The notes under the pieces: generated by a model
Seen by the model: only the letters and a program-made list of their open reading frames with translations
The model's database searches: none
What the model was told of the DNA's origin: nothing
Position numbers and translations under genes: made by a program
Part shown: positions 484 to 36,869 of the stretch, piece after piece
Layout of the letters: every line of letters starts with the position of its first letter
Position numbering within the stretch: position 1 is the first letter of the stretch
NCBI RefSeq assembly: GCF_000966265.1
Contig: NZ_LANF01000011.1
Location: 62,001 to 126,000 of the forward strand
Direction: 5' to 3'
Length of the DNA stretch: 64,000 nucleotides
From: Palaeococcus ferrophilus DSM 13482
Lineage (GTDB): Archaea > Methanobacteriota_B > Thermococci > Thermococcales > Thermococcaceae

Positions 484-3345
484 TTAAGAGGAGAAGAGCC
501 CAGCGGCTCCTTTTCCCTCTTCAACCGCCTTTCCTACCTTCAGCTCCATCCCGAAGGCGTTCGTAACGGTGCCCTCCTTGGCCGCCCAGAGGCCAGCCGG
601 AAGAACTAACACGTCCCCCTCAAGCTTCCTCCCCGTCCTCCCTACCACGACGTAGGCTTCACTATCTGGAATTCCCGTTATTCCCGCCCTGATGAGTCCT
701 GCTGCGTTAACTCCCTCATGGAGTATCAGCGTCGGCACTTCGAGGGGCTCCGCAGGTCCCTCGAGTAGCGCTATATCATAGTCCTCCTCGACCACCTCCT
801 TACCCCTCAGGAGTATTTTGAGGAGAGGGTACTTCTCGGGGTCGGCCTTAAGGAGGACGCGCTTTGCCTTTTTGATATCCTCAAGAGTAGCCGTTGAAAG
901 CCTGCCCTCAACCGTTGAGCCTATCGGGATGCCGTGCTTTTCGGCGAACTCCTTAAAGAAGGCTATCTCCTCGTTGGTCAGTTCTGGCGTGAGGATGAGC
1001 GCGTAGCCCTTCTCGGCTATGAACCTCTTCGCTTCTTCCCAGCTCACGGGCTTTCCGTTGAGGAGCGGCTGGACTAAATCCTCGGCCCAGGGTCTGGCGA
1101 AGCGGCAGGTGTCGCATAGGTACCTGTTCCAGCTCTCCTCGACGCTCGACGCCCTCACGAGCATTCCGTCGTAGACCTCTATGTTCATCTCGCAGGCGAA
1201 GGAACAGCCGTTGCAGACCGTTTTGACGGGGGTGGTCTTCCACGGGCCGGGCTTGACGAAGGGAAGCTTCTCGGTTATGGCCCCAACGGGACAGACGTCT
1301 ATGGTCTCGCCGATGAAGACTCCTTTAGCGTCCCCCAGCGTCTCGCCGAGGGGCGGCGAAACCCTCGTCTTGAAGCCGCGGAAGAGGTAGTCGAGCACCC
1401 CCTCACCGGCAACATCGTGGGTAAACCTTACGCACTGGCCGCAGAGGACACACTTGTTGTTGTCGAGGGTGACGAACGGGTGGCTCTCGTCGAGCTCGAA
1501 CCTGTTTTGCTCTCCCTCAAAGGCCTCCTGCCCCGCGTTGTAGAGCGTGGCGTACTCCCTCAGCTTACAGCGGAAGACCTCCATACAGCCACAGCTCATA
1601 CAACGCTTGGCCTCTTCGAGCACCTGCTCCTCCGTCAGGGAAGGCTCGACCTCCTCAAAGTTCCCCTTCCTGATTTCGGGATCGAGGAGTTCCACCTTCG
1701 CCCGCGGCTTTCTCTCAACGCCCTCGTAGTCCTTCTCCGTGACCTTCTTCCAGTGGTTGTAGGGCCTGAGGTCGAAGAGCACACGGTAAAGGTCATCGTC
1801 GGCCAGAACTTTCTCGATGTGCTTCTCGGGCTCAAGCAGAACTTCCTTGGCCTTCTCAAGCTTGCCTTTAAGATACAAGTCTATCATTATCGCCGCCCTT
1901 CTCCCGGTGGCGATGCTCTCTATGACCGTCGAGGGACCGAGGACCAGGTCACCACCCGCGAAGACACCCGGAATGCTCGTCTGGAGAGTTACATCGTCCA
2001 CGAGGGCCTTTCCGCGCTTCGCCTCTATGCCGAGGCCCTTGAGAAACCCCTCGTCGCAGTACTGGCCTATCGCGAGGATGACGTTGTCGGCCCTAACGCG
2101 GAACTCGGAACCCTCTACCGGTATCGGCCTCCTCCTGCCGCTGGCGTCCGGCTCGCCGAGGCGCATCTTTATCAGCTCGACTTCCTCGACCCTGCCGTCT
2201 CCGAGTATCTTGACCGGGTTCGTGAGGAAGAGGAACTCGACGCCCTCCTCGATTGCCTCCTCGACCTCGCGCTCGTTGGCCGGCATCTCTGCCTTGGAGC
2301 GGCGGTAGACAACGGTAACCTTAGCTCCAAGCCTTAAAGCCGTTCTCGCAACGTCCATGGCGGTGTTCCCACCGCCGACGACGATAACGCGCTCGCCGAG
2401 CTTCACTTCCTCGCCGGTGTTGACCCTCCGCAGGAACTCTATTCCGTGCATCACCCCCTCAAGCTCCTCACCCGGGATGCCCAGCTTCCTGCTCCTCCAG
2501 GCACCGACGCCGAGGAAGACTGCATCGTACGCCTCCTTTAGCTCCTCAAGGGTAACGTCCCTCCCGAGGGCAGTGTTGGTCTTCACCTCAATGCCCGTGT
2601 CGATGACGGTCGCGATGTCCTTGTCAAGGACGTCCCTTGGGAGCCTGTAAGGAGGAATGCCGTAGCGCATCATTCCGCCGAGCTTAGGCATCGCCTCGAT
2701 TATCGTCACCTCGTGCCCCATCGTGCGTAGGTAGTAGGCACATGCAAGGCCAGCTGGCCCACCGCCGACGACGGCAACGCGCTTCCCGGTTGAGGGTGGA
2801 ATCTCAGGCATCCACGGGCCGTGCTCGAGGTCGTAGTCGGCCGCGAAGCGTTTGAGCTGTCTTATCGCCAGGGGCTCCTCAACGAGGTTCCTCCTGCAGG
2901 CCTCCTCACAGAAGGCCGGGCAGACCCTCCCGAGGACAGCCGGGAGAATGTACTTCTCCTTCATCAGCTTCACGGCCTCGTGGTACTTGCCCATCGCTAT
3001 GAGCGCTAAATACCCCTGGACGTCGCTGTGGGCGGGACAGCCGTCCTGGCAGGGCCCTATACAGTCGCCGTAGTGGTCTGAGAGAATCAACTCCAGAGCG
3101 GTCTTCCTCATCGAGACAACTTCGTTCGTGAGCGTTTCAACGCTAAGGCCTTCAATGGGCTTGAGGGTGCACGATGTTGTAACGCCCCTCGGAGTGCTCA
3201 CGAGGCAGAGCCTGCAGGAGCCGTAGGGCTCAAGCTCTTCGGTATAGCAGAAGCCCGGGACGTGGGTAATCTCGCGCAGGAACTCTATGAGGGGCCTCCC
3301 CTCCGGAACCTCCGTTTCCTTACCGTTGAGGATAATCCTGACCAT
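484..3345 (-). CDS. GltD/NfnL-type FAD-NAD(P) oxidoreductase fused to NuoG-like iron-sulfur domains
   Basis: The protein has 953 residues. Residues 1-75 form a plant-type [2Fe-2S] domain (C33, C44, C47, C59). Next comes a GltD-type double [4Fe-4S] segment (C95 to C150), then two Rossmann motifs, VVGGGPAGL near 192 (FAD) and VVGGGNTAM near 322 (NAD(P)). After 580 there are NuoG-like cysteine clusters (C582/585/587/593, C632/635/638 with CPVG at 685, C711/714/718 with C744/747). The tail is a shrunken molybdopterin-type domain ending in the NuoG-like EGTVTNAFG motif. The ATG at 3345 overlaps the stop of the NuoF-like gene and has a GGGAGG ribosome site. With the two preceding genes it should form a soluble multi-cluster flavoprotein exchanging electrons between NAD(P)H and ferredoxin. 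Electron bifurcation is an inference. Confidence 0.85.
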   Translation of the reverse strand: MVRIILNGKETEVPEGRPLIEFLREITHVPGFCYTEELEPYGSCRLCLVSTPRGVTTSCTLKPIEGLSVETLTNEVVSMRKTALELILSDHYGDCIGPCQDGCPAHSDVQGYLALIAMGKYHEAVKLMKEKYILPAVLGRVCPAFCEEACRRNLVEEPLAIRQLKRFAADYDLEHGPWMPEIPPSTGKRVAVVGGGPAGLACAYYLRTMGHEVTIIEAMPKLGGMMRYGIPPYRLPRDVLDKDIATVIDTGIEVKTNTALGRDVTLEELKEAYDAVFLGVGAWRSRKLGIPGEELEGVMHGIEFLRRVNTGEEVKLGERVIVVGGGNTAMDVARTALRLGAKVTVVYRRSKAEMPANEREVEEAIEEGVEFLFLTNPVKILGDGRVEEVELIKMRLGEPDASGRRRPIPVEGSEFRVRADNVILAIGQYCDEGFLKGLGIEAKRGKALVDDVTLQTSIPGVFAGGDLVLGPSTVIESIATGRRAAIMIDLYLKGKLEKAKEVLLEPEKHIEKVLADDDLYRVLFDLRPYNHWKKVTEKDYEGVERKPRAKVELLDPEIRKGNFEEVEPSLTEEQVLEEAKRCMSCGCMEVFRCKLREYATLYNAGQEAFEGEQNRFELDESHPFVTLDNNKCVLCGQCVRFTHDVAGEGVLDYLFRGFKTRVSPPLGETLGDAKGVFIGETIDVCPVGAITEKLPFVKPGPWKTTPVKTVCNGCSFACEMNIEVYDGMLVRASSVEESWNRYLCDTCRFARPWAEDLVQPLLNGKPVSWEEAKRFIAEKGYALILTPELTNEEIAFFKEFAEKHGIPIGSTVEGRLSTATLEDIKKAKRVLLKADPEKYPLLKILLRGKEVVEEDYDIALLEGPAEPLEVPTLILHEGVNAAGLIRAGITGIPDSEAYVVVGRTGRKLEGDVLVLPAGLWAAKEGTVTNAFGMELKVGKAVEEGKGAAGLFSS

Positions 3346-5147
3346 CACTCATCCCTCCCGGTGAGAATCTCTATGGCGTTGAACCGACACACCTCGTAGC
3401 AGGTACCACACTTGATGCATGCCTCCTGGTCGATGACGTGGGGCTTGAGCCTCTCGCCGCTGATAGCTTTGACTGGGCAGAATATCGCGCAGGCGGTACA
3501 GCCGGTACACTTGTCGGTGATTATGACGTACCTTATGAGCGGCTTGCAGACCTTCGCCGGACAGCGACCGTTTATGTGCTCGATGTATTCTTCCCTAAAG
3601 TAGCGGAGCGTCGTTAGAACCGGATTTGGAGCCGTTTGCCCGAGACCGCAGAGCGAGCCGGCCTTGACCTGATAGGCGAGCCTCTCAAGCTTTTCAAGGT
3701 CCTCCTCGGTCGCCTCTCCCTTCGTGAACTTGTCAAGTATCTCCCACATCCTCTTGGTGCCGAGACGACAGAAGGTGCACTTGCCGCAGGACTCCTTAAC
3801 CGTGAAGTCGAGGAAGAACCTGGCAACGTCAACCATACAGGTGTCCTCGTCCATGACGACCATTCCGCCGCTGCCCATTATGGCCCCTGTCGCGTTCACG
3901 CTCTCGTAGTCAACGGGAGTGTCAAAGAGCTCTTCCGGAATGCAGCCGCCCGAGGGGCCACCAAGCTGAACCGCCTTGATCCCCTTGCCAGTCTTCGTCC
4001 CGCCGCCTATCTCGTAGAGTATCTCCCTAAGTGTGATTCCCATAGGAACCTCCACGTTGCCGCCGTGCTTTATCTTGCCCGATAGCGCGAAGACTTTCGT
4101 CCCCTTGCTCTTCTCCGTTCCAAGTGAGGCGTAGGCCTCCGGGCCGTGCCTTATTATCCAGGGCACGTTCGCCCAGGTCTCCACGTTGTTTATGTTGGTG
4201 GGCTTTCCGAAGAGGCCCTTCTGGGCAGGGTATGGGGGTCTCGGCCTCGGCATGCCACGCTTACCTTCAATGGAGGCTATGAGTGCAGTCTCCTCACCGC
4301 AGACGAAGGCTCCAGCCCCTTCCTTGATGACGATGTCGAAGGAGAAGCCGCTCCCGAGGATGTTCTCCCCCAGAAAGCCCCTCTCCCTAGCCTGCTGGAG
4401 AGCTATCTTTAGCCTTCTTATGGCCAGCGGGTACTCCGCTCTCACGTATATGAAGCCCTTCGTTGCCCCGATTGCGTAGGCACCGATTATCATACCCTCG
4501 ATTACGCGGTGAGGGTCGCCCTCAAGGACGTTCCTGTCCATGAAGGCTCCTGGGTCGCCCTCGTCGGCATTGCAGACTATGTACTTCTCGTCCCCCTTCG
4601 CTTGGCGGGTGAACTTCCACTTCAGCCCCGTGGGGAACCCGGCACCCCCGCGACCGCGGAGACCGGATTTTGTGATGACCTCTATTATCTCCTCCGGATC
4701 CATCTTAAGGGCCTTTTTGAGGGCCTCGTAGCCGCCCGCTTGGATGTACTCGTCTATGTTCTCGGGGTCTATGTAGCCGGAGTTTTCGAGGACTATCTTC
4801 TTCTGCTTGGCGAAGTAACCATCAACGTCCCATGTCTTTCTCTCGCCGTTCTCCCACCAGTCGCGCTTGACTACCCACTCCTCCACCGGCTTCCCGTTGA
4901 GGACGTGCTCCTCTATGATCTTCGGGACTTTCTTGGGGTCGACGTGGCCGTAGGTGATAATCTCATTCTCGGTGATTATGTCCACGAGGGGCTCGCGGTA
5001 GCACATGCCGACGCAGCCGACTATCTTGAGGGGAACATCTATACCGCGCTCCTCAAGCTCCTGCTTTATCGCCTCGTAGGTCTCCTTGGCACCTGCCGCT
5101 ATACCGCAGGAGTTCATACCCACTGCTATGGCCTTGACCTCAGACAT
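3345..5147 (-). CDS. NuoF/HydB-like FMN and iron-sulfur subunit
   Basis: The 600-residue protein has an N-terminal thioredoxin-like [2Fe-2S] domain (C14, C45, C49). The NuoF core carries the FMN/NADH motifs GRGGAGFPTGLKW and CNADEGDPGAF and the [4Fe-4S] motif ESCGKCTFCRLG with a later LCGLG cysteine. A C-terminal ferredoxin domain holds two C-x2-C-x2-C-x3-C clusters. This extended NuoF layout is known from electron-bifurcating HydABC-type hydrogenases and related NAD(P)-linked complexes. It is expected to be the pyridine-nucleotide site of the trio. The start overlaps the end of the NuoE-like gene by 8 bases, so the two are probably translationally coupled. Subunit class is certain, physiological direction is not. 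Confidence 0.88.
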   Translation of the reverse strand: MSEVKAIAVGMNSCGIAAGAKETYEAIKQELEERGIDVPLKIVGCVGMCYREPLVDIITENEIITYGHVDPKKVPKIIEEHVLNGKPVEEWVVKRDWWENGERKTWDVDGYFAKQKKIVLENSGYIDPENIDEYIQAGGYEALKKALKMDPEEIIEVITKSGLRGRGGAGFPTGLKWKFTRQAKGDEKYIVCNADEGDPGAFMDRNVLEGDPHRVIEGMIIGAYAIGATKGFIYVRAEYPLAIRRLKIALQQARERGFLGENILGSGFSFDIVIKEGAGAFVCGEETALIASIEGKRGMPRPRPPYPAQKGLFGKPTNINNVETWANVPWIIRHGPEAYASLGTEKSKGTKVFALSGKIKHGGNVEVPMGITLREILYEIGGGTKTGKGIKAVQLGGPSGGCIPEELFDTPVDYESVNATGAIMGSGGMVVMDEDTCMVDVARFFLDFTVKESCGKCTFCRLGTKRMWEILDKFTKGEATEEDLEKLERLAYQVKAGSLCGLGQTAPNPVLTTLRYFREEYIEHINGRCPAKVCKPLIRYVIITDKCTGCTACAIFCPVKAISGERLKPHVIDQEACIKCGTCYEVCRFNAIEILTGRDE

Positions 5148-5604
5148 CGAGCTTCCCCTCCCTGAGCTTCCTGATGAGCTTCCTCACCTTCTCGGGAGTG
5201 AGCTTGCCGAAGACCTTCTCGTTGATCATGATGACGGGAGCGAGGCTGCAGCAGCCCAGACAGGCGACGCGCTCGAGCGTTACCAGCCCATCTTCCGTCG
5301 TCTGACCCTCCTCTATGCCAAGCTCCTCCGTTATAGCCTGCGCTATGTTGACCGCGCCGTTGACGTGGCAGGCGGTGCCGTGGCATATCTTCACAACGTA
5401 CTTCCCGAGCGGCTCGAAGCGGAACTGGGCGTAGAACGTAGCGACACCGTAAACCCTGCTCAGCGGAAGCCCGAGGTAGTTCGCTATCTCCTCCATGGCC
5501 TCCCGCGGAAGGTAGCCGAAGCGCTCCTGCGTCCTCTGGAGAAGGGGGATGAGAGAGCTCGGCTCGGGAGGATAAGAGCGTATGTAATCGAGGTTTGCTT
5601 CCAT
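5140..5604 (-). CDS. NuoE/HydC-like [2Fe-2S] subunit
   Basis: The 154-residue protein has the 24-kDa NuoE fold. A helical N-terminal part (FGYLPREAMEEIA) is followed by a thioredoxin-like domain with four [2Fe-2S] cysteines in CHGTAC and CLGCC. It is the first gene of the leftward trio. The ATG at 5604 is preferred over an in-frame ATG at 5619 because a GGTGAG ribosome site sits six bases upstream of it. A TATA box at 5647-5656 on this strand would start transcription about 20 bases before the gene. It should pass electrons between the FMN subunit and a partner. Confidence 0.88.
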   Translation of the reverse strand: MEANLDYIRSYPPEPSSLIPLLQRTQERFGYLPREAMEEIANYLGLPLSRVYGVATFYAQFRFEPLGKYVVKICHGTACHVNGAVNIAQAITEELGIEEGQTTEDGLVTLERVACLGCCSLAPVIMINEKVFGKLTPEKVRKLIRKLREGKLDV

Positions 5605-5646
5605 AACACTCACCTGCACCTTTTTCGAAAAAATTTCGACTTTAAT

Positions 5647-5656
5647 GTTTATAAAA
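5647..5656 (-). promoter_or_regulatory. TATA box of the NuoE/F/GltD operon
   Basis: On the minus strand the sequence reads TTTTATAAAC, a strong Thermococcales TATA element. It lies about 45 bases upstream of the ATG at 5604, leaving a short leader that contains the GGTGAG ribosome site. Confidence 0.6.
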
Positions 5657-5686
5657 GTGCACTAAAGCACATGTTTGAAACAATTG

Positions 5687-5703
5687 GTTGGCAACCGTTT
5701 GTT
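5687..5703 (+). promoter_or_regulatory. SurR-type operator between the NuoEF-like and hyh operons
   Basis: GTTGGCAACCGTTTGTT fits the extended SurR consensus GTTn3AACn5GTT exactly. SurR is the redox-switched regulator of hydrogen and sulfur genes in Pyrococcus furiosus. The site ends 8 bases before a TATA-like TTCTTAAATC at 5711-5720 of the rightward operon, the geometry of activation. It also lies about 30 bases upstream of the leftward TATA, so it could act on both operons. Motif match seen, binding inferred. Confidence 0.75.
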
Positions 5704-5769
5704 TGAAAAATTCTTAAATCGTTTCTTTACAAACTTAAAATTGACAATCCCCGTATGGCGGTGGTGCCT

Positions 5770-6774
5770 TTGAGATATATAAAATTGCCTTCCGAAAATT
5801 TTGAGGAGTTCTTCAACTCGCTGAAGAGTCTGGGGAGGGTGTACGCCCCGGTGAAAAAGGGAAAGGTCTATTCTTTCCAGGAGGTTCAGACGGCTGGGGA
5901 CATGGCCCTTGACTACAACAGAACCATGCTCCCGCCGAAGAAGTTCTTTGTAAGGCCCAGGGAGAGCATTCTCCACCTCAAGAACGGCAGATGGGAAGAC
6001 GGTGCCAAGGAGGAGATGTTCGTCCTCTTCGGCCTCCACTCCTGCGACATCCACGGGCTTAAGATACTCGACAAAGTGTATCTCGAGGAGCCCGCAGACC
6101 CCTATTACAAAGCGAGGCGCGAAAAGGCTTTCATAGTCGGGATAAGCTGCATTCCAGATGAGTACTGCTTCTGCCGGAGCCTGGGAACGGACTTCGCCAT
6201 GGACGGCTTTGACCTCTTCCTCCACGAGCTGCCGGATGGATGGCTCGTCCGCGTCGGGAGCGTGAGGGGGCATGAGGTTGCTTGGGAGAACGAGGAACTG
6301 TTTGAGAGCGTTACAGAGGAAGACCTCGCGAACTTCAGGGCCTTTGAAGAGAGGCGCGCGGCCTCTTTCAAGAGAAAGCTCAGCAAGGAAGGCCTTGCCG
6401 ACATGCTCGACTTAGCCTACAACAGCCCCGTGTGGAAAAAGTACGCGGACATATGCCTCGCCTGCGGCAACTGCAATATGGTATGCCCAACCTGCCGCTG
6501 TTACGAAGTTTGCGATAAGTGGACGAACGCATATGAGGCCGTGAGGGAGAGGCGCTATGATTCCTGCTTCATGGAGAGCCATGGTCTCGTTGCAGGCGGC
6601 CACAACTTCAGGCCGACGCGTTTGGATCGCTTCAGGCACCGCTACTACTGCAAGAGCTACTTCGACCCCTCGGCCGGCTTTAACTGCGTCGGTTGCGGCC
6701 GCTGCGACGAGTTCTGTCCCGCTAAGATAGAGCACGTTAAGGTTCTCGACGAGGTAAGGGGGTCACTGCAATGA
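5770..6774 (+). CDS. hyhB: Sulfhydrogenase II beta subunit (iron-sulfur, Hdr/AsrA-like)
   Basis: The first gene of the soluble [NiFe] hydrogenase operon makes an electron-transfer subunit with two C-terminal [4Fe-4S] motifs (CLACGNCNMVCP and CVGCGRCDEFCP). Conserved blocks include FGLHSCDIHGLKILD and GLVAGGHNFRPT. A TTG start at 5770 (MRYIKLP) is preferred. It has a GGCGGTGG ribosome site and matches the MRYVKLP start I recall for the P. furiosus sulfhydrogenase beta subunit. The in-frame ATG at 5755 has no visible ribosome site. The gene ends inside the start of the gamma gene (ATGA overlap). It relays electrons between the flavoprotein and the hydrogenase small subunit. Confidence 0.9.
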   Translation: MRYIKLPSENFEEFFNSLKSLGRVYAPVKKGKVYSFQEVQTAGDMALDYNRTMLPPKKFFVRPRESILHLKNGRWEDGAKEEMFVLFGLHSCDIHGLKILDKVYLEEPADPYYKARREKAFIVGISCIPDEYCFCRSLGTDFAMDGFDLFLHELPDGWLVRVGSVRGHEVAWENEELFESVTEEDLANFRAFEERRAASFKRKLSKEGLADMLDLAYNSPVWKKYADICLACGNCNMVCPTCRCYEVCDKWTNAYEAVRERRYDSCFMESHGLVAGGHNFRPTRLDRFRHRYYCKSYFDPSAGFNCVGCGRCDEFCPAKIEHVKVLDEVRGSLQ

Positions 6775-7646
6775 CCGGGAATCCGTACCTCTCTTACGAC
6801 GCGAGGATTCTTGAGGTCAAGGATCTGACACCGAGGGAGAAGCTCTTCACGCTCCGCTTTGTTGACCCTGAGGCAGGAGAAAAGTTCGACTTCAGGCCGG
6901 GCCAGTTCGTGATAGTGGACGTCAGGGGCTTCGGCGAGTTCCCGATAAGCCTCTGCTCCTCTCCCACAAGGAGGGGCTACATCCAGCTCTGCATAAGGAA
7001 GGTCGGCAGGATGACGAAGTTCATCCACAGGATGAAGGAAGGCGAGGTAGTCGGCATCCGTGGCCCCTACGGCAACGGCTTCCCCATGGAGAAAATGGAG
7101 AGCTCTAACCTCGTTCTCGTGGCCGGCGGTCTCGGGATGGCGCCTTTGAGGTCTGTCCTCTGGTACGCGATAGATTCAGGAAAGTACGAGCACATCTGGC
7201 TCTTCTACGGAACGAAGGCCTACGAAGACCTGCTCTTCAGGGATGAAATAGTCCATCTCCTGAAGCACGGTGATGCCATGAACTGCAACGTAAAGCTCGC
7301 CTACGAGGTCGAGAGCCCCTCGTGCGTCTACCTTGAGAAGGGCTTCTCGGACAGGGTCTGTCGGGGGGTTGTGACGGACCTCTTCCGCGGGGAGGAGTTC
7401 GACGTGAACAACACATACGCCCTCATCTGCGGGCCTCCGGTGATGTACCGCTTTGTGATAAGGGAGCTCCTGGACAGGAAACTCTCCCCAGGGAGGATAT
7501 ACATGACCCTCGAGAGGCGCATGCGCTGCGGAATCGGCAAGTGCGGCCACTGCATCGTCGGGACGAGCACGTCAATCAAGTACGTCTGCAAGGACGGCCC
7601 GGTCTTCACGTACTGGGACGCCCTCTCAACAAGGGGGTTGATATGA
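6771..7646 (+). CDS. hyhG: Sulfhydrogenase II gamma subunit (FAD/NAD(P)H-binding, [2Fe-2S])
   Basis: The 291-residue protein belongs to the ferredoxin-NADP reductase / dihydroorotate dehydrogenase K superfamily. It has an FAD-binding barrel with FRPGQF, a nucleotide-binding half with VAGGLGMAPLRSVLWY, and a C-terminal cysteine set (MRCGIGKCGHC plus a later C) for a [2Fe-2S] cluster. It is the pyridine-nucleotide site of the hydrogenase, letting the enzyme oxidise H2 with NAD(P)+ or the reverse. Start and stop overlap the neighbours by 4 bases, as expected in a coupled operon. Confidence 0.92.
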   Translation: MTGNPYLSYDARILEVKDLTPREKLFTLRFVDPEAGEKFDFRPGQFVIVDVRGFGEFPISLCSSPTRRGYIQLCIRKVGRMTKFIHRMKEGEVVGIRGPYGNGFPMEKMESSNLVLVAGGLGMAPLRSVLWYAIDSGKYEHIWLFYGTKAYEDLLFRDEIVHLLKHGDAMNCNVKLAYEVESPSCVYLEKGFSDRVCRGVVTDLFRGEEFDVNNTYALICGPPVMYRFVIRELLDRKLSPGRIYMTLERRMRCGIGKCGHCIVGTSTSIKYVCKDGPVFTYWDALSTRGLI

Positions 7647-8383
7647 TGGGAAAGCTCAAACTCGGTGTTTTTGAGCTTACGGACTGCGGCGGCTGCGCGC
7701 TCAACATACTCTTCCTCTACGAGAGGCTCTTCGACCTCCTGGAGTACTACGAGATAGGTGAGTTCCACATGGCTTCGAGCGTGCACGACGGCAACCACTA
7801 CGATGTCGCCATAGTCACGGGCACGGTCTCGAGCCACCGCGACCTGGAGCTTCTAAAGAATGCCAGGAACCACTCCGAGTACCTGATTGCGCTTGGGACG
7901 TGCGCCACACACGGGGACGTCCAGGCGAGTGTGGAGGGAAAGATTCGGGAGAAGCTCGAAAGGGTTTACGGCACGCGGGGGAACCCTATGAAGGCTCTGG
8001 AGTCAAAGCCGGCCGTTGAGTACGTGGCCGTTGATTTGGCAATCCCCGGCTGTCCCTATGACAAGGAAGAGCTGTACCAGGCACTCATGAACATAGCGAA
8101 GGGCATAGACCCGGTTCGTCCGGACTACCCGGTATGCGTCGAGTGCAAACTCAACGAGTACGAATGCGTTCTCGTGAAGAGGAACCTTCCCTGCCTCGGG
8201 CCGATAACCCTCGGCGGCTGCAACGCCGTCTGCGTACGCTCCGGTCTCGGGTGCATAGGGTGCAGGGGCCCTCTGCCCGGCGAGGTAAACCCCGCGAGCG
8301 AGTACGAGATACTAAAGGGCAAGGGCTACGATGACGACTACATAGTAAGGAAGTTCAAGACCTTCGCGAGGTGGGAGCCGTGA
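7643..8383 (+). CDS. hyhS: Sulfhydrogenase II delta subunit (hydrogenase small subunit)
   Basis: The 246-residue protein is the [NiFe] hydrogenase small subunit. It carries the proximal-cluster motif ELTDCGGCALN near the N terminus, GTCATHGD, and IPGCPYD. A cysteine-rich C-terminal part follows (CVECKLNEYEC, CLGP, GLGCIGCRGP) for the medial and distal clusters. There is no twin-arginine leader, so the enzyme is cytoplasmic. The ATG at 7643 overlaps the gamma stop and follows GGGGG. An in-frame start further upstream would lie inside hyhG and is rejected. Confidence 0.92.
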   Translation: MMGKLKLGVFELTDCGGCALNILFLYERLFDLLEYYEIGEFHMASSVHDGNHYDVAIVTGTVSSHRDLELLKNARNHSEYLIALGTCATHGDVQASVEGKIREKLERVYGTRGNPMKALESKPAVEYVAVDLAIPGCPYDKEELYQALMNIAKGIDPVRPDYPVCVECKLNEYECVLVKRNLPCLGPITLGGCNAVCVRSGLGCIGCRGPLPGEVNPASEYEILKGKGYDDDYIVRKFKTFARWEP

Positions 8384-9627
8384 TAATCGAACTGAGGGAG
8401 TTTGCGCGCGTTGAGGGCAACGGGAAGGCTGAGATACTCATCGAGGACGGCGAGGTCAAGGACGTGAGGCTCAAAATCGTCGAGGGCCCGCGCTTCTTCG
8501 AGCTCCTGACCCTGGGAAGGCACTACTACGACGTGCCCGACCTTGAGGCGAGGATATGCGCGATATGCTATCTCGCCCACAGCGTCGCCTCTGTCATGGG
8601 GATAGAGAGGGCCTTCGGCGTGGAGGTTCCGGAGGAGATAACCCTCCTCAGGGAGCTCGGCCTCATAGGGGAGTTCCTCGAGAGCCACGCACTGCACCTC
8701 TACCTACTGGTCGCACCGGATGTTTTCGGCTACCCCGACGCCATAAGGATGGCGACGAAGCACGGCGAGCTCGTGAAGGAGGGGCTCGCGCTCAAGGCCT
8801 TCGGCAACAGGATAAGGGAGCTCATCGGTGGAAGGGAGATTCACGGCATAAACGTCAAGCCAGGCGGATTTGGACGTTACCCCACCACCGAAGAGCTCGA
8901 GGCAATGGAGCGGGAGAGCAAGGCATTTCTGAGGCTCGCCAAGAGGGCGGTGAGGCTCTTCGCCGGACTTGAACCCTACGGCGAGAAAGCTAAACACCTC
9001 GTCGCCACCGACGGCTACCTGTGGGGGGAGGAGCTAATCGCCGAGGATAAAGAGAGCTTCCACTACACTGAGAGAATAGAGGAGCACTCCCTCGCATACA
9101 GTTTCGCCAAGCAGAGCCGCTATAACGGGGAGAGCTTTTTCGTCGGGGCCTTGCCGAGGCTCCTGCTAAAGGGCGAGCAGTTAACGCCCGAGGCGAAGCG
9201 CCTGCTGGAAGAGCATAGGGAGAAACTTGAGAGCGGCCATGTGAGCTACAACAACCTCGCGCAGGCGATAGAGCTTGTGTACTCCCTCGAAAGGGCCAAC
9301 GAGATAGCGAAAACACTCCTCGATAAGGGCATCTCAGGCGAGAACGTCCCCGTGGAGCCGAAGGAAGGAGAGGGAATTGGCTACGTCGAGGCACCGAGGG
9401 GAGTCCTGATACACCACTACCGCACCGATTCGAGCGGGAAGATAGCCTACTCGAACATCATAACTCCCACAGCACTGAACCACGCCATGATTGAGGCCAG
9501 CCTGCTGAAGGAAGCCAGAGCCCTCTACGGTGAAGTCGAGGAGGCGGAGATGGTGCAGAGGCTGGAGGAGACGGTGAGGGCCTTCGACCCGTGCATCTCC
9601 TGCTCCGTCCACCTCGTGAGGCTTTGA
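8380..9627 (+). CDS. hyhL: Sulfhydrogenase II alpha subunit ([NiFe] catalytic subunit)
   Basis: The 415-residue large subunit carries both [NiFe] ligand motifs, RICAICYLAHS (C60, C63) and DPCISCSVH (C405, C408). It ends only four residues after the second motif, in LVRL. That matches the very short maturation peptide known for the Pyrococcus soluble hydrogenases. GTG at 8380 is chosen because GAGGTGG lies six bases upstream; it overlaps the delta stop. The N-terminal block FARVEGNGKAEI is family-typical. Function: reversible H2 oxidation coupled to NAD(P)H, with the sulfur reductase side-activity reported for this enzyme class. Confidence 0.94.
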   Translation: MIIELREFARVEGNGKAEILIEDGEVKDVRLKIVEGPRFFELLTLGRHYYDVPDLEARICAICYLAHSVASVMGIERAFGVEVPEEITLLRELGLIGEFLESHALHLYLLVAPDVFGYPDAIRMATKHGELVKEGLALKAFGNRIRELIGGREIHGINVKPGGFGRYPTTEELEAMERESKAFLRLAKRAVRLFAGLEPYGEKAKHLVATDGYLWGEELIAEDKESFHYTERIEEHSLAYSFAKQSRYNGESFFVGALPRLLLKGEQLTPEAKRLLEEHREKLESGHVSYNNLAQAIELVYSLERANEIAKTLLDKGISGENVPVEPKEGEGIGYVEAPRGVLIHHYRTDSSGKIAYSNIITPTALNHAMIEASLLKEARALYGEVEEAEMVQRLEETVRAFDPCISCSVHLVRL

Positions 9628-9648: not shown

Positions 9649-9819
9649 AGCCTAACTTTTGTGAGGAGAGGGTATGTTCCAACGTTCCGGGGCAACCTTT
9701 TCCCAGAGAGCACCCATGAACCACTCCCGCCAGACCACGAGATGATGGACCGAAGGAACCGAAAAGTATTTGTAAACTCGTGAGCAGGTTTTGGTATAAA
9801 GCAAAAGGCGGTGGCAACA

Positions 9820-10485
9820 ATGTCACTTCAGGAAGTGTACACCCTCCTTGACTCCATGAAGTTTGGTGAGACCGTCCTCGTTGAATACCAATCTCCGAGC
9901 TACATCCTTGACTTCCTCCTCCTTCTCCTGAAGCACTACGCCGATGAGAGAGGGCTCCCCCTCGTCATTGATGACAACCTCGACATCCTCCACGTTGTAA
10001 ACGAACACCTGAAGCTTTTTGGTGTGGAAGGTGCCTTTGACGGGGCGATGGTTGTCAAAACGGGCGGAAAGATAAACGTCGGGAACGTCGTTGGGAGAAT
10101 CCCCCTCGAAGGAGAGCCCTCCCTCTATCTGAGGAGGTATGAACAGCTCTCGAGGGAGGTATTGTCAGGGGTTAAAAATGCAATCAACGCCGTTATCGGG
10201 CTTGAAAGACTCTTCGCCTTCACAGAGAACAGGGCCGACTTCTACAGCATAATCTCCTCCATCCAGACCTTCGTCGGGAATCACGGGAGAAAGGCATTCT
10301 ATTTCGTGGACGTGGATATTGCCGAAAGGGTCCCCTTCAACCCCCTTCCCGAGCTCGAGAGGATAGCCACGACGGTTATCGTTACGAGACCTCAGAAGGA
10401 CAGAGGAATTGGAAGAATAGTAAAGGGCACGAACGTTGAAGCCCTCGGAAAGGAAATTGAGGTATCGCTCACCGAGCTCCTCTGA
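9820..10485 (+). CDS. DUF257 family protein (KaiC/RecA-like fold, Thermococcales)
   Basis: The 221-residue protein resembles the DUF257 family, found almost only in Thermococcales and thought to have a degenerate RecA/KaiC-like fold. Supporting features are the N-terminal FGETVLVEYQS block, the DFLLLLLKHYADERGLPLVI strand-helix and VVKTGGKINVGNVVGRI. No Walker A motif is visible, so ATP hydrolysis is doubtful. ATG at 9820 is used because GGCGGTGG lies just upstream. The 3' end overlaps the converging glucanotransferase gene by 17 bases. The function is unknown. Confidence 0.7.
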   Translation: MSLQEVYTLLDSMKFGETVLVEYQSPSYILDFLLLLLKHYADERGLPLVIDDNLDILHVVNEHLKLFGVEGAFDGAMVVKTGGKINVGNVVGRIPLEGEPSLYLRRYEQLSREVLSGVKNAINAVIGLERLFAFTENRADFYSIISSIQTFVGNHGRKAFYFVDVDIAERVPFNPLPELERIATTVIVTRPQKDRGIGRIVKGTNVEALGKEIEVSLTELL

Positions 10486-12673: not shown

Positions 12674-13972
12674 TCAAACCACCCTGCCCTCCGTGAGAAC
12701 CCTAGGCGCTATGAAAGTTCCTATGCGCTCCGTTTTATCGCCAACGGCCCTTACCTTCTTCAGCAGCTCGAAGACGTTTCCGGTAAACATGTTGTCCTTG
12801 AAGGGCACTACCTCCCCATTCCTCACCACGTAGCCCAGTCCGACGGTTAGGGAGAAGTCGCCGCTCACGGGGTTGGCGGTGTGCTCCCCGAAGACCCGCT
12901 TTATGATGACTCCCTCGAAGTCCTCAAGGCTTTCCTTCCCCGGCTCCACGATAATGTTGCTCGTCCCGATGTGGGGCTTTGTCCTGAAGTCCCTGACCGC
13001 GTTCCCCGTGCTCTCCACCCCAAAGAGCCTCGCGTAGTACTCGTCAAAGAGGAAGCTCTTAAGCTGGCCGTCCTCAACGAGGGGCGTTCTCCTCCCGGGG
13101 TTGCCCTCCCCGTCGAAAGGATAGCTCCCCATCCCTCCTGGAAGGGTCGCATCGTCCACGAGGGTTAAACCGCCCCCAACCTCCTCGCCCGGCTCCCTAA
13201 AGCGGGAGCGTCCGTGGTGGACGTTCTCCGCGTTGAGGTTCTCGACGAGAATACCTATCACCGCGGAGAGGGCGTGGGGTTCAAGGAGGAGCTCCCCACC
13301 ATAGCTCTCAAGGGGCCTCGCCATGTAGCTCAGTTCGGCCTCCTCGAGGGCCTTCGAGATACCCTCCTCAAAGGCATCCTCGAGTTTGGGGAGCGTCCTG
13401 AAAGTAAGGTAGTGGCTCCCGGTCCCCGTTTTATCCCCTCTCCTCACCACGTAGGTGGATACCGTCATGGCCGTGGCCTCACTCTCCATAAAGATACCGT
13501 TGGAGTTGGCCACACCGTCGTGAGCCACTCCGAAGGCGAGGGAGGCGGAAAAAAGGTACTCGCTCCCGAGGCGCTCCATCTCGGCCCTCTCACTCCCGAG
13601 GAGCTCGAGGGCATCGTTAAGGGCCTCCTCAAAGCCCATGTTCTCTATCTTGGGGTCGTAGAGGTCCTTTACCCTGGGAACGGGCTTCCGGTCGGGAAAG
13701 CCCAGGAACGGAACCCCACCAACCTTCGCGAGCTTTATGGTATGCTTAACGAACTTCTCGAGGGTCCCCCTATCGTGGGTAAGGCCCGTGATGTAGGAAA
13801 AGCCCTGCTTCCCGTCCACGCCGATTCTGAGGCCTACCCCAGAGTGAAACTTACGCTGGGCCCTCTCAAGTTCTCCGCGCTCTATTTTAAAAGAACTTCC
13901 CCTCCCTTTCTCCCAGTAGAGCTCCCACTCAACGTTTTCCCTCTCGAGGATTCCTATGAGCTCGTCTATCAT
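12674..13972 (-). CDS. tldE: TldE/PmbA-family protease subunit
   Basis: The 432-residue protein belongs to the TldD/PmbA (U62) family and lacks the HExxxH zinc motif, as usual for the TldE partner. Typical blocks are GVGLRIGVDGKQGFSY, GGLTLVDDATLPGGMGS with its DGEG turn, and ENMFTGNVFELL-like FKDNMFTGNVFELL near the C terminus. With TldD (start overlapping that gene's stop by 4 bases) it forms a heterodimeric zinc protease that degrades short unfolded peptides in the cytoplasm. Confidence 0.92.
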   Translation of the reverse strand: MIDELIGILERENVEWELYWEKGRGSSFKIERGELERAQRKFHSGVGLRIGVDGKQGFSYITGLTHDRGTLEKFVKHTIKLAKVGGVPFLGFPDRKPVPRVKDLYDPKIENMGFEEALNDALELLGSERAEMERLGSEYLFSASLAFGVAHDGVANSNGIFMESEATAMTVSTYVVRRGDKTGTGSHYLTFRTLPKLEDAFEEGISKALEEAELSYMARPLESYGGELLLEPHALSAVIGILVENLNAENVHHGRSRFREPGEEVGGGLTLVDDATLPGGMGSYPFDGEGNPGRRTPLVEDGQLKSFLFDEYYARLFGVESTGNAVRDFRTKPHIGTSNIIVEPGKESLEDFEGVIIKRVFGEHTANPVSGDFSLTVGLGYVVRNGEVVPFKDNMFTGNVFELLKKVRAVGDKTERIGTFIAPRVLTEGRVV

Positions 13973-27485: not shown

Positions 27486-28004
27486 ATGGCGATTAAAGTT
27501 CACGCCCAAGATGTTCACGCGAACAACGAAGATACTTCCCAGCGCGAGAGGCTGGAGAGGGAGATATCAAGGCTCTGCAGGTACATAGGGAGATCACCGT
27601 GGGTCTTCCATGTGAACAGCGGTTCCTGCAACGGGTGCGACATTGAGATAATAGCGGCACTGACGCCGCGCTACGACGCTGAGAGGTTCGGGGTGAAGCT
27701 GGTCGGAACACCGAGACACGCCGATGTGCTCCTCGTCACCGGGCCGGTCACCAACCAGAGCCTCGAGAGGGTCAAACTCGTCTACGAGCAGACCCCAGAC
27801 CCGAAGGTAGTCGTGGCCATAGGCGCGTGTCCCACAGGGGGAAGCGTGTTCTTCGAGAGCCCGTTCACGAACGCACCCCTGGACAAGCACATACCCGTGG
27901 ACGTCTTCGTCCCCGGCTGCCCGCCGAGGCCCGAGGCGATACTCCACGGCGTTGTGCTGGCACTCCAAAAGTTAATCTCAAAAATCGAAGGTGAGGGAGA
28001 ATGA
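27486..28004 (+). CDS. mbhJ: MBH subunit J, NuoB-like hydrogenase small subunit (first operon)
   Basis: The 172-residue protein holds the proximal [4Fe-4S] cluster with cysteines in NSGSCNGCDIE, GACPTGG and VPGCPPRPEAI. It has a charged N-terminal extension of about 35 residues that the second operon's copy lacks. A perfect GGTGATGGTGT precedes the ATG. It transfers electrons from the ferredoxin-like subunit N to the [NiFe] site in L. Confidence 0.93.
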   Translation: MAIKVHAQDVHANNEDTSQRERLEREISRLCRYIGRSPWVFHVNSGSCNGCDIEIIAALTPRYDAERFGVKLVGTPRHADVLLVTGPVTNQSLERVKLVYEQTPDPKVVVAIGACPTGGSVFFESPFTNAPLDKHIPVDVFVPGCPPRPEAILHGVVLALQKLISKIEGEGE

Positions 28005-28528
28005 ACGTTGACGAGTTTATGAAGGTTTTCGGTGAGAGGTTCCCTGAGGCGGAGGTAAGAGTCAGCGAGAACAAAGAGCCCCACCCGAGGAGAAGGGTGT
28101 GGGCGACCGTTGAGAGGGAGAAGTTCCACGACGCCATGAAGTTCGTCAGGGAACTGGACCCTAAGGCACAGTTCTCCATCATAATCGCAAGGGACGCCGG
28201 TGAAACGCTGGAGGCAAAGTACCATATGGAGCTCTTCTGGGAGGAAGGGGAGAGCATATCCCTCATCATAGGCACGAGCGTTCCCAAGGAAGACCCGAAG
28301 CTGCCCACGGTGACGGACGTCTTCCCGAGTGCGCTTCCCTACGAGAGGGAGGTTCAGGAGTTCTACGGCCTGTTCTTCGAGGGCATCCCCGACCCGAGGA
28401 GACTCTTCCTGCCCGACGACTGGCCCGAAGGAGTTTACCCGCTCAGGCTCGACGAGACGGGAATCAAGCCTGAGATGGTGAAAAACGCGGGGCACCCGTA
28501 CAAAATAAAAAAGGAGGGGGCTAAATGA
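28001..28528 (+). CDS. mbhK: MBH subunit K, NuoC-like (first operon)
   Basis: The 175-residue protein belongs to the 30-kDa NuoC family with FPSALPYEREVQEFYGL and RLFLPDDWPEGVYPLR. It has no cofactor and is a structural part of the peripheral arm. It overlaps J and L by 4 bases. Confidence 0.92.
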   Translation: MNVDEFMKVFGERFPEAEVRVSENKEPHPRRRVWATVEREKFHDAMKFVRELDPKAQFSIIIARDAGETLEAKYHMELFWEEGESISLIIGTSVPKEDPKLPTVTDVFPSALPYEREVQEFYGLFFEGIPDPRRLFLPDDWPEGVYPLRLDETGIKPEMVKNAGHPYKIKKEGAK

Positions 28529-29820
28529 ACGAGAGGCTTGAGTACTGGGTTAAGATACCCGTTGGGCCGATACACCCGGCCCTTGAGGAGCCCGAGAAGT
28601 TCATCATCACGCTCGACGGTGAGAGGATAATAAACGTTGACGTCAAGCTCGGCTACAACCTGAGGGGAATAGAGTGGATAGCCCTCAGGAGAAACTACAT
28701 CCAGATACTCTATTTGGCCGAGAGAATGTGCGGAATCTGCTCGTTCTCCCACAACCACACATACTCAAGGGCCGTCGAGGAGATGGCGGGCATAGTCGTC
28801 CCTGAGAGGGCCGAGTACATACGTGTGATAGTGGGCGAGCTTGAGAGGATTCACTCCCACCTGCTCAACCTCGGTGTCGTCGGCCATGCAATAGGCTACG
28901 ATACAGTCCTGCACCTCAGCTGGCTCGCCAGGGAGAGGGTCATGGACATCCTGGAGGCGATAGGCGGCAACCGCGTTAACTACGCCGTCAACATGATAGG
29001 CGGAGTCAGAAGAGACCTCGAAGAGAAGCACATCAGGGCGATAAAGGAGATGGTAGAGTACTACCGCAGCGAGGTCATGCCCAAGATAGAGGAGATATTC
29101 CTCTACGACCCGACGGTTGAAGCTCGCTTGAGGGACGCGGGCGTTATTCCAAAGAGGATAGCCATAGACTACAGCGCCCAGGGGCCAACGGCCAGGGGAA
29201 GCGGCGTAAAGAAGGACGTCCGCTACAACGAGAAGCTAGGTGTTTATCCAGACCTCGGGATAAAGCCGATAACGCCCAAGGAGTTCACTGGAGTAATCAA
29301 GGGGGACGTCTTCGACAGGATGGTGGTCAGGGTAGGTGAGCTCTGGCAGAGCCTCGAACTTATAGAGAGGGCCATAGATCAGATGCCCGAAGGAAAGATA
29401 AAGGCCGTCCCGAAGGACAACGCCCTCCTCTTCCAGCTCAAAAAGGCCGATGGGGAGGGAATAGGAAGGTACGAAGCACCTAGAGGTGAGCTGATTCACT
29501 ATGTCAAAGGGCAGAAGGGCAAGGACGTTCCCGCGAGGTGGAAGATGAGAGAACCAACCTTCCCGAACCTCTTCGCCATAGCGAGGGCCCTCGTGGGCGA
29601 GCAGGTTGCGGACGTTCCCGTGGCGATAGCTTCGATAGACCCGTGCCTGAGCTGTACGGACAGGGTTGCGGTGATAGATGCAAACACCGGAGAGAGGAGA
29701 ATCCTCACGGAGAAGGACCTTCTCAGGCTCTCGATAGAGAAGACGAGGGAGCTCAACCCAGAGGTGAAGGCAAAGCCAGAGGTTGTTGGAGTTGGCTGCC
29801 CGAGGGGTGGTGCGCTGTGA
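28525..29820 (+). CDS. mbhL: MBH subunit L, [NiFe] hydrogenase large subunit (first operon)
   Basis: The 431-residue group 4 large subunit (NuoD homologue) has both nickel motifs: RMCGICSFSHNH (C69, C72) and DPCLSCTDRVAV (C374, C377). After the second motif 51 residues follow to VGCPRGGAL. By analogy with other group 4 enzymes this tail would be cut off during nickel insertion. The sequence agrees closely with what I recall of P. furiosus MbhL, including DPCLSCTDR. Function: proton reduction with electrons from ferredoxin, coupled to ion export. Confidence 0.94.
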   Translation: MNERLEYWVKIPVGPIHPALEEPEKFIITLDGERIINVDVKLGYNLRGIEWIALRRNYIQILYLAERMCGICSFSHNHTYSRAVEEMAGIVVPERAEYIRVIVGELERIHSHLLNLGVVGHAIGYDTVLHLSWLARERVMDILEAIGGNRVNYAVNMIGGVRRDLEEKHIRAIKEMVEYYRSEVMPKIEEIFLYDPTVEARLRDAGVIPKRIAIDYSAQGPTARGSGVKKDVRYNEKLGVYPDLGIKPITPKEFTGVIKGDVFDRMVVRVGELWQSLELIERAIDQMPEGKIKAVPKDNALLFQLKKADGEGIGRYEAPRGELIHYVKGQKGKDVPARWKMREPTFPNLFAIARALVGEQVADVPVAIASIDPCLSCTDRVAVIDANTGERRILTEKDLLRLSIEKTRELNPEVKAKPEVVGVGCPRGGAL

Positions 29821-30806
29821 ACGTCATCTACGCCACTCTGGGATTCCTCGGAGTTTACGCCTACGTCTCATTTGCCTCCCTGCTCTGGGGCGGAATAGAC
29901 AGGAAGCTCGTGGCGAGGATGCAGCGCCGCGTTGGTCCCCCGCTGTTCCAGCCCTTCTACGACTTCCTCAAGCTGGTGAGCAAGGAGTCAATAATTCCCA
30001 GAGATGCCAACAGGCTCTTCGAGCTCTCTCCAGTTTTCGCGCTGGCCGCTTCAATAACCCTCCTGGCCTACACCCCGCTCGGCTTCGAACCGCTCTTCGG
30101 CACCAAGGGTGACGTCATCCTCTTCGTCTACCTCCTGACCACGATAGGCTTCCTGAGGGTTCTAGGTGCGGTGAGCTCAGGTTCGCCCTACGCCCAGCTC
30201 GGAGCGCAGAGGGAGATGATAATCCTAGCCTCAAGGGAAGCTCCCATGATGCTGGGCCTCTTCACAATCCTCTGGCGCCTCAAGGAGCTCGGCGTTACGA
30301 AGCCCTTCAGCATGGGGACGTTCTACGAGCACAACATCTGGGAGCTGGGAACACCCCTGAGCCTAATAGGGACGCTCATACTCCTCTTCGTCTTCATGGC
30401 GTGGCTCGCGAGCGAGATAGAGGTGGGCTTCTTCGACATCCCCGAGGCGGAGACCGAGCTAGCGGAGGGAACGATGGCGGAGTACAGCGGGAGACATCTG
30501 GCACTTTTCGAGCTCGCCAACGCCATAAAGGCCTTCGTCAGCGCGAGCCTCGTCGTGGTGGTCTTCTTCCCGTGGGGGATCTCTCAGTATCTCGGACTCA
30601 CGGGACTTCCCGCCATGGCGATTGAGCTGCTCTTCCACACCCTCAAGGTCTTCGTCGTGCTCTTCGTGAGCATGAGCGTCTTCAGGGCTGTAACGGGAAG
30701 GCTCAGGATAACGCAGGCGGTGGGCATGTTCTGGACGAGGCTCCTGCCGGCGAGCATCGTTGGGGCGATTCTTCTTGCGATAGACGCGCTGGGGGTGATA
30801 GTATGA
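29817..30806 (+). CDS. mbhM: MBH subunit M, NuoH-like (first operon)
   Basis: The 329-residue protein has eight helices of the NuoH family, with MQRRVGPPLFQPFYD, AQREMIILASREAPMM and FFDIPEAETELAEGTMAEYSG. It anchors the hydrogenase arm in the membrane. The GTG at 29817 overlaps the L stop and has GGGGTGGT upstream. Much longer in-frame readings upstream run through mbhL and are rejected. Confidence 0.93.
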   Translation: MNVIYATLGFLGVYAYVSFASLLWGGIDRKLVARMQRRVGPPLFQPFYDFLKLVSKESIIPRDANRLFELSPVFALAASITLLAYTPLGFEPLFGTKGDVILFVYLLTTIGFLRVLGAVSSGSPYAQLGAQREMIILASREAPMMLGLFTILWRLKELGVTKPFSMGTFYEHNIWELGTPLSLIGTLILLFVFMAWLASEIEVGFFDIPEAETELAEGTMAEYSGRHLALFELANAIKAFVSASLVVVVFFPWGISQYLGLTGLPAMAIELLFHTLKVFVVLFVSMSVFRAVTGRLRITQAVGMFWTRLLPASIVGAILLAIDALGVIV

Positions 30807-31219
30807 AGGTTCCACCGACGCTCTCAACAGTTCTAGGAAACCTCTTCAAAAAGCCCGCGACCAACCCGTTCCCGGAGAGCGAGCCGGTGCCGGTTCCCGA
30901 GGGCTTCAGGGGCAAGCTCAACTACGACGTCGAGAAGTGCGTCGGCTGCAGACTCTGCGTTATGGTCTGCCCCGCTGGGGTGATAGAGTACGTCCCCGAG
31001 GTGAAGAAGGTCACCTTCTGGCTCGGAAGGTGCGTCTTCTGCCAGCAGTGTGTGGACGTATGCCCCGTCAACGCCCTCTGGATGAGCGACGAGTTCCTAT
31101 TAGCTACAACCGACAAGTACGACGACAACCTCCGCTGGCTCAAGGGGGAAGAGATTGCGGAGCTCAAGAGGAAGCTCGAGGAAGAGAAGAGGGCCAAGGA
31201 AGCCGCAAAGAAGGAATGA
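30803..31219 (+). CDS. mbhN: MBH subunit N, NuoI-like ferredoxin subunit (first operon)
   Basis: The 138-residue protein has two [4Fe-4S] motifs, KCVGCRLCVMVCP and RCVFCQQCVDVCP, and ends in a lysine/glutamate-rich helix. It takes electrons from reduced ferredoxin. It is the last gene of the operon. A G/C hairpin follows at 31234. Confidence 0.93.
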   Translation: MKVPPTLSTVLGNLFKKPATNPFPESEPVPVPEGFRGKLNYDVEKCVGCRLCVMVCPAGVIEYVPEVKKVTFWLGRCVFCQQCVDVCPVNALWMSDEFLLATTDKYDDNLRWLKGEEIAELKRKLEEEKRAKEAAKKE

Positions 31220-31233
31220 TTTACTCTACCTCG

Positions 31234-31253
31234 ATGGGGGATTCACCCCCCAT
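31234..31253. terminator. Hairpin between converging genes
   Basis: ATGGGGG and CCCCCAT form a 7-bp stem around a 6-base loop. It stands between the end of mbhN and the end of the rubrerythrin-like gene, and overlaps the last codons of the latter. It is well placed as a two-way termination or RNA-end signal, though no T run adjoins it. Confidence 0.35.
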
Positions 31254-31746
31254 TATATCCTCCACGTTTCAGCTTCTCGTACTCCCTCTTCAACGCCTCG
31301 TAATGTTTTCTCTCAACCTCTGCGAGCCTCGAGTATAATCTTCTCAGGTTCTCGTCCTCAACCCTCTCCGCCAGCAGTCTATAGGACTCATGGGCAATGA
31401 GTTCGCTCTCCATAGCTACCCTGAGGACTTCCTCAAGCTGATCGGCCCTCTCAAACTCGTTGATGACGGGGAGAACCTCGATGGGTGGTATATCCACCTT
31501 CGGCTTCTTTCCGTACTTCCTCTCATAGTGGATTCCCAGTTCAGTAGCGTGCTCAAGGGAATCCCGTGAAAGCCGTTCAAAGGTCTCAGCGAGTTCTTCA
31601 CCCAGTTTTAGATCCCTGGTGCGCCTGGCCAGCTCGCGGTAGAACTTCGCCTCCTCCCTCTCCCCCTCTATCCAGTAGGCCAGAGCCTCCTCGTAACTCA
31701 GTTTTGAAAGGGCCCTGACGACATCTTCCACATCGTACATATCCAT
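31243..31746 (-). CDS. Rubrerythrin/ferritin-like diiron protein
   Basis: The 167-residue all-helical protein has four-helix-bundle diiron motifs: EGEREEAKFY, RDSLEHATEL, AMESELIAHESY and LAEVERKHYEAL (two ExxH plus further glutamates). There is no rubredoxin domain. Relatives act in peroxide or oxygen defence or iron handling. It lies alone, opposite in direction, between the two mbh operons. The start is uncertain: ATG at 31746 or ATG at 31740. Confidence 0.75.
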   Translation of the reverse strand: MDMYDVEDVVRALSKLSYEEALAYWIEGEREEAKFYRELARRTRDLKLGEELAETFERLSRDSLEHATELGIHYERKYGKKPKVDIPPIEVLPVINEFERADQLEEVLRVAMESELIAHESYRLLAERVEDENLRRLYSRLAEVERKHYEALKREYEKLKRGGYNGG

Positions 31747-31924
31747 CCCTTTGAGATTAACCGGAACGGGTAAATAAGCTTTGGCCTGCTAAGATTAATG
31801 CATTCATGCATACAAAATTACATTAAATTTCCATGTGGGTCACCCACGTCACCTAAAATACCACGGTGAATGGTTCTGTAGATATACGTAAACCAGCAAT
31901 TGTTTGCTATTTGTCAAATTTAAA

Positions 31925-31941
31925 GTTTTAAACCTTTTGTT
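31925..31941 (+). promoter_or_regulatory. SurR-type operator of the second mbh operon
   Basis: GTTTTAAACCTTTTGTT matches GTTn3AACn5GTT at all nine defined bases. It ends 10 bases before the TATA box at 31951-31958, the same order and spacing as at the hyh promoter. This favours activation by reduced SurR, which is how hydrogenase operons behave in P. furiosus. Confidence 0.75.
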
Positions 31942-31950
31942 TAGGAAAGG

Positions 31951-31958
31951 CATTTATA
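31951..31958 (+). promoter_or_regulatory. TATA box of the second mbh operon
   Basis: ATTTATAAG follows the purine-rich AGGAAAGGC (BRE-like). Transcription would begin near 31980, giving a leader of about 60 bases that ends in the ribosome site GGTGGGAAA. Confidence 0.6.
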
Positions 31959-36867: not shown

Positions 36868-36869
36868 CG

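Follow-up and report, generated by a model that had tools for sequence, protein, structure and literature searches.

We analyzed a 64,000-nucleotide stretch of Palaeococcus ferrophilus DSM 13482 (contig NZ_LANF01000011.1, positions 62,001 to 126,000; hereafter the window), the first 9.6 kb of which consist of two divergent operons with open reading frames (ORFs) overlapping within each, three on the minus strand (bfuC, bfuB and bfuA, hereafter the trio) and four on the plus strand, encoding sulfhydrogenase II (SHII). It is very likely that the trio specifies an archaeal type-1 Nfn-Bfu (Stn-family) bifurcating transhydrogenase, which is coupled to SHII through nucleotide pools and not as one complex, and whose place opposite SHII is exchanged with NfnI. 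By its sequence, the trio is a member of an already characterized family and not a new enzyme type. What appears to be new here is comparative: in one slot beside a hydrogenase, enzymes that solve bifurcation in two unrelated ways alternate.

Family membership and predicted electron path

When all PDB chains were searched, the best matches of BfuA, BfuB and BfuC were the NfnA, NfnB and NfnC chains (A, B and C) of 9n5u/9n5v, followed by 9bov and then S. ovata Stn (8oh5); E-values against the solved homologues were 0 or near 0. The genes are bfuA (484-3348, minus strand; also stnC, nsoC or nfnA of NfnABC), bfuB (3345-5147, minus; stnB or nfnB), encoding a 600-residue NuoF-type flavin mononucleotide (FMN)/nicotinamide adenine dinucleotide (NAD(H)) protein, and bfuC (5140-5619, minus; stnA or nfnC), encoding a 159-residue NuoE-type thioredoxin-like [2Fe-2S] subunit. 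BfuA, BfuB and BfuC showed 79, 88 and 80% identity, respectively, to the proteins of the homologous locus in genome G078, presumably T. sibiricus, whose BfuA is identical to PDB 9n5u_A over 942 of 942 aligned residues. In the purified T. sibiricus complex, the reduction of ferredoxin with NADPH is reported to be tightly coupled and to take place only on addition of NAD+ (Schut et al. 2022, PMC9304861). Stn was described earlier, when the T. litoralis homologue Nso was also pointed out (Kremp et al. 2020, PMC7483475), and the S. ovata enzyme was subsequently analyzed by cryo-electron microscopy and mutational dissection (Kumar et al. 2023, PMC10482914). No paper describing the T. sibiricus NfnABC structure (9N5U) turned up in the literature searched. 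The sequence-only reading of this DNA had called the trio a bifurcating NAD(P)H-ferredoxin enzyme that joins a HydBC-type core to a GltD domain, and had referred to a separate bifurcating family proposed for enzymes of this kind. Both calls hold, with bifurcation shown for the T. sibiricus orthologue and the family being Nfn-Bfu/Stn. However, because the orthologous complex has been purified (PMC9304861) and solved (9n5u), the trio is no longer an open candidate.

The seven ORFs, the genes and the domains described for the trio and the facing hydrogenase were recovered with Pfam and NCBIfam, including the GltD-NuoG fusion of 953 residues (from ATG; 954 if a GTG start is used). BfuA combines Fer2_4, a GltD-type flavoprotein and a NuoG-like Fer4 part. 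Its N-terminal [2Fe-2S] cysteines are C34, C45, C48 and C60, its GltD-type flavin adenine dinucleotide (FAD)/NADP(H) domain has the Lys typical of Stn (Lys166) along with two [4Fe-4S] sites, and a Fer4 remnant toward the C-terminus is followed by a partial FdhF-like domain (C712, 715, 719, 748). In the NuoG-like part, the CxxCxxC at 633-639 lacks a fourth cysteine and no second CxxCxxC motif was found; judging from these motifs, the second ferredoxin-type cluster is lost. The same cluster (A4 cysteines) is missing from the T. sibiricus enzyme (PMC9304861). Cysteine motifs of the BfuBC core were all complete except one: BfuC has C79, C84, C120 and C124 for its [2Fe-2S] cluster, and BfuB has the NuoF cluster (C454/457/460/500), the Zn-linker motif HxxxxCxxxxC (524-534) and two C-terminal [4Fe-4S] motifs (547-557, 577-587). 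The exception is the N-terminal thioredoxin-like part of BfuB, to which a [2Fe-2S] site had been assigned; it has three candidate cysteines (14, 45, 49) instead of the usual four, so a canonical four-cysteine site is incomplete there. The two C-terminal clusters of the earlier description stand. The same three cysteines aligned in StnB, and T. sibiricus NfnB is likewise. The solved T. sibiricus NfnC aligned with window BfuC only from residue 7, and for this reason the ATG at 5604 is probably the true bfuC start. A reading of the trio as a complex I fragment was considered and rejected.

Residues around the GltD flavin bear on which flavin bifurcates. BfuA K166 aligned with StnC K170, a position at which NfnI (NfnL) has Glu; BfuA also retains the equivalent of StnC R239, and the position of StnC C114 is Val. 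It has been reported that StnC K170 ligates the FAD-proximal cluster (NfnB has Glu there), and that the bifurcation site of Stn is the StnB FMN with the StnA [2Fe-2S] cluster, StnC FAD only accepting electrons from NADPH (PMC10482914). Since the FAD was concluded to be non-bifurcating in Stn and window BfuA has the diagnostic Lys166, only one flavin, the BfuB FMN, should bifurcate, and the GltD FAD should be the NADP(H) site. The sequence-only reading had pointed to both kinds of flavin site in one predicted complex. Both domains do occur there, which would fit a double-bifurcating enzyme with an NfnL-type FAD and a HydB-type FMN. However, the replacement of the NfnL Glu ligand by Lys and the lack of an NfnS-type partner carrying a second FAD make such an enzyme extremely unlikely. 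The trio also differs from NfnAB (NfnI) itself in the same two respects, with no NfnS adjoining and Lys166 at the Glu position. In addition, compared with NfnL, BfuA seems to have a circular permutation in its GltD-like domain, an order common to Stn: the match to the NfnL N-terminus (BfuA 554-587 to residues 10-43 of chain 4ylf_B) sits C-terminal of the remaining domain.

By analogy with Stn, we infer an electron path in which NADPH would be oxidized at the non-bifurcating FAD of the BfuA GltD domain and electrons would pass along the BfuA iron-sulfur clusters to the BfuB FMN. There they would be split, one pair going to NAD+ and single electrons moving through the BfuC [2Fe-2S] gate and the BfuB C-terminal clusters to ferredoxin. 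The reaction should be reversible, and its cellular direction is probably from NADH and reduced ferredoxin to NADPH; NADPH formation without sulfur has been published for NfnI (PMC6405883).

A slot opposite sulfhydrogenase II and its occupants

Scanning a contig collection with BfuA gave mostly metagenome-assembled genomes (MAGs), and the survey was based on 94 Thermococcaceae genomes instead. BfuB occurred in 44 of them. Where BfuB and SHII were on one contig, their arrangement was divergent, and bfuB lay about 3.2 kb from hyhL in 37 of 39 cases; the two exceptions in spacing were G076, which has an insertion, and G017, in which SHII is a remnant. At SHII loci without the trio, this divergent position was taken by NfnS-NfnL (14 + 8 = 22 loci; spacing 3.6–3.7 kb), and G083, counted in addition, had one partial bfuC opposite SHII. 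Altogether, a bifurcating transhydrogenase lay opposite SHII at all 62 evaluable loci (40 BfuABC, 22 NfnI), five loci cut by contig ends being left out (G002, G035, G052, G066 and G091). These gene orders provide good support for the view that Thermococcaceae reserve the divergent position facing SHII for a bifurcating transhydrogenase, and that this slot holds either Bfu or the unrelated NfnI. NfnI-type NfnS (≥78% identity) was present in 25 of the 94 genomes and never together with Bfu, against 11.7 overlaps expected (hypergeometric P about 3e-9, an optimistic value since it treats related genomes as independent). Mutual exclusion of Bfu and NfnI was stated earlier (Schut et al., PMC9304861); their shared divergent position opposite SHII was not found in the literature searched. 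Exchange within this slot offers a reason for the lack of any genome in the family with both NfnI and Nfn-Bfu.

The rule "Bfu or Nfn, never both" is limited to NfnI, because the P. ferrophilus genome (G000) has Bfu plus NfnII/NfnIII-like paralogues. NfnI is absent from it, its best NfnS matches being paralogues at 40–46%, and its two further NfnSL-like pairs (C11:326599-327963, L115; C19:80024-81394, L116) are apparently NfnII/NfnIII. Among the other loci, the slot NfnL of G028 (L085, 12065-13488) is split into two ORFs, which may reflect a frameshifted pseudogene or a fault in the assembly. BfuCBA adjoins NfnSL-like genes in two MAGs labelled DHVE2 (L075) and Euryarchaeota (L077), possibly by transfer or as misbinned Thermococcales contigs; in L075 a distant sulfhydrogenase-like set also adjoins BfuCBA. 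Bfu trios with BfuA identity of 55–61% and no recognized SHII nearby were seen in Bacterial/Thermoplasmata MAGs (L079, L080 and L081; Thermodesulfobacteriota, WOR-3).

Close comparisons showed that Bfu and NfnI have been exchanged in place repeatedly opposite SHII, as read from the aligned loci. Genomes G025 (NfnI; which we take to be T. onnurineus) and G038 (Bfu) were 95–97% identical up to the junction on the hyhB side and 91–97% beyond the cassette, and only the transhydrogenase segment differed. The same pattern was found in another genus, for G074 and G080 (NfnI) versus G077 (Bfu), with flanks at 87–96%. On the HyhL tree, slot state required 8 changes, at least 5 of them forced by well-supported branches. 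The junction alignment showed that the hyh-proximal promoter was retained across the swap. On balance we lean toward SHII and its divergent partner forming an exchangeable unit for balancing H2, NAD(P) and ferredoxin, in which the FMN-gated Bfu and the FAD-based NfnI would be interchangeable at one SurR operator; functional equivalence and common control of the two are what we infer from the exchange. If so, nature has itself run this swap experiment at least five times. Matched strain pairs such as G025 and G038, whose local difference is the cassette alone, would allow FAD-type and FMN-type bifurcation to be compared in closely related hyperthermophiles.

The locus has its own history in P. 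ferrophilus. As the baseline for species placement we used aIF2 gamma, which grouped the genome with G001 and G002 (90–91%, versus 87–88% for Thermococcus-type genomes). A TldD-like neighbor (12674-13972) tried for the same purpose gave no clear phylogenetic signal, and an ORF of 1138 amino acids was rejected as too poorly conserved. In contrast to aIF2 gamma, BfuB grouped inside the Thermococcus-type set (support 100/96; identity up to 96%, versus 88% to G001), and HyhL was 91% identical to G068 and 74% to G001. Thus the trio and SHII are closest to Thermococcus-type (g3) copies while the housekeeping gene puts the genome in another genus (g1). Because of this conflict, the trio and SHII probably arrived together by horizontal transfer, which is the simplest account of these affinities.

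SurR-type motif and proposed coupling to the hydrogenase

The divergent intergenic region (5605-5754) supports the earlier proposal that the trio and SHII share a promoter region. It has two outward TATA-like boxes, at 5648-5655 on the bfu side and about 5713-5719 on the hyh side, and between them three overlapping matches (5673-5703: 5673-5689, plus; 5679-5695, minus; 5687-5703, plus) to the long SurR consensus, GTTn3AACn5GTT (PMC12162507, PMC8595942). The window has 7 such matches versus 0.16 expected, 3 of them at this junction, and the motif was kept in 21 of 22 junctions inspected (11/11 Bfu, 10/11 NfnI). Because it was still upstream of the trio in 5 of 5 genomes with SHII lost or degraded, the motif probably serves the trio itself. 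Other long SurR-type motifs lie at 31925 and 32010, inside a segment (27486-40091) whose two gene sets, with Mrp antiporter genes and NuoD-like large subunits, resemble clusters for a membrane-bound hydrogenase and/or a sulfane reductase. A further one (63420-63436) lies near the likely true start of a pyridine nucleotide-disulphide oxidoreductase, possibly NSR-type (62077-63486).

The facing operon is an ordinary SHII, a separate soluble NiFe hydrogenase exchanging H2 with NAD(P)H. Its four plus-strand genes are hyhB/shyB (beta, iron-sulfur; 5755-6774; NF040829), hyhG/shyC (gamma, FAD/NAD(P)H; 6771-7646; NF040830), hyhS/shyD (delta, small subunit; 7643-8383; NF040831) and hyhL/shyA (alpha; 8371-9627; NF040828). 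All four subunits (ShyA-D) pass the NCBIfam equivalog cut-offs, and the set is complete with its own flavin subunit; HyhL has the NiFe ligand motifs RICAICYLAH (61-70) and DPCISCSVH (406-414). Downstream of hyhL is a DUF257 protein (9811-10485), and many of the compared genomes have DUF257 genes there, often paired.

The sequence-only reading went on to suggest a combined NAD, NADP, ferredoxin and H2 hub. In its strong form, the trio and SHII would be one physical complex bifurcating among H2, NAD(H), NADP(H) and ferredoxin, and the nearly invariant divergent pairing, the operator motif common to both operons and the shared Thermococcus sensu stricto affinity of the two, as if co-travelling, all agree with this, as does the existence elsewhere of NiFe-Bfu hydrogenases with BfuABC plus SL (PMC9304861). 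However, the trio was kept without SHII in at least four genomes (G023, G026, G049 and G057), in G017 no more than a remnant of SHII adjoins it, and SHII can have the unrelated NfnI as its partner, which argues against an obligate complex. Besides, the operons are divergent and not co-transcribed, and NfnA, B and C are the only components both of the enzyme as published and of the solved PDB entry. With a flavin subunit of its own in SHII and a trio that persists without it, the locus does not correspond to a NiFe-Bfu hydrogenase (HydABCSL). We consider one complex very improbable, and the hub came from context only. The better reading is that the trio and SHII are coupled via shared nucleotide pools, and probably also via a common SurR operator. 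The genomic context of the two is nonetheless strong and conserved, beyond what sequence alone could show. In G057, BfuC consists of two overlapping open frames and may be frameshifted or misassembled.

Several points weigh against the interpretation given here. The bifurcation data come from orthologues, and the activity of the P. ferrophilus trio is predicted; similarly, the in vivo direction is deduced by analogy, SurR control of the trio is proposed from motif matches in a putative operator, and the organism names behind the genome handles are our own attributions. P. furiosus nfnI falls with sulfur. In T. piezophilus, Nfn genes are listed under negative SurR control (PMC8595942). Finally, according to the account of Toth (2008) given in PMC7483475, the T. 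litoralis homologue was formerly described as an NADPH-dependent sulfur oxidoreductase (Nso). The trio might then be mainly an NADPH-dependent sulfur/polysulfide reductase, and a sulfhydrogenase neighbor and a sulfur-responsive operator motif would suit such a role. Yet a close orthologue carries out NAD+-dependent reduction of ferredoxin by NADPH (PMC9304861), the trio is replaced in place by a dedicated transhydrogenase, NfnI, and the window encodes a separate pyridine nucleotide-disulphide oxidoreductase with its own SurR-type motif. A primary role in sulfur reduction therefore appears very unlikely, and we retain the assignment to the bifurcating Nfn-Bfu family.

Comparison with known systems

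The closest known system is T. sibiricus Nfn-Bfu/NfnABC (PDB 9n5u, 9n5v), which has the same three genes, cluster set, loss of A4 cysteines and divergent SHII neighbor. The difference is one of sequence divergence only, the window copy grouping with Thermococcus sensu stricto (BfuB 95–97%). S. ovata Stn (StnABC; PDB 8oh5, 8oh9) has a common architecture, the BfuBC core and the residues corresponding to StnC K170 and R239, but window BfuA is about 200 residues shorter, is without the second Fer4 cluster and has Val for StnC C114. T. litoralis NsoABC is of the same architecture (its StnC homologue, OCC_03032, has 955 amino acids); its name, as relayed in later literature, refers to sulfur reduction and was given before bifurcation was known. 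P. furiosus NfnI (NfnAB/SudBA; PDB 5jca) has the same published net reaction and the same slot and operator motif opposite SHII, and its GltD domain is homologous to that of the trio at about 44% identity. However, it differs from the trio in having two subunits, a bifurcating FAD in NfnL and no BfuBC core.

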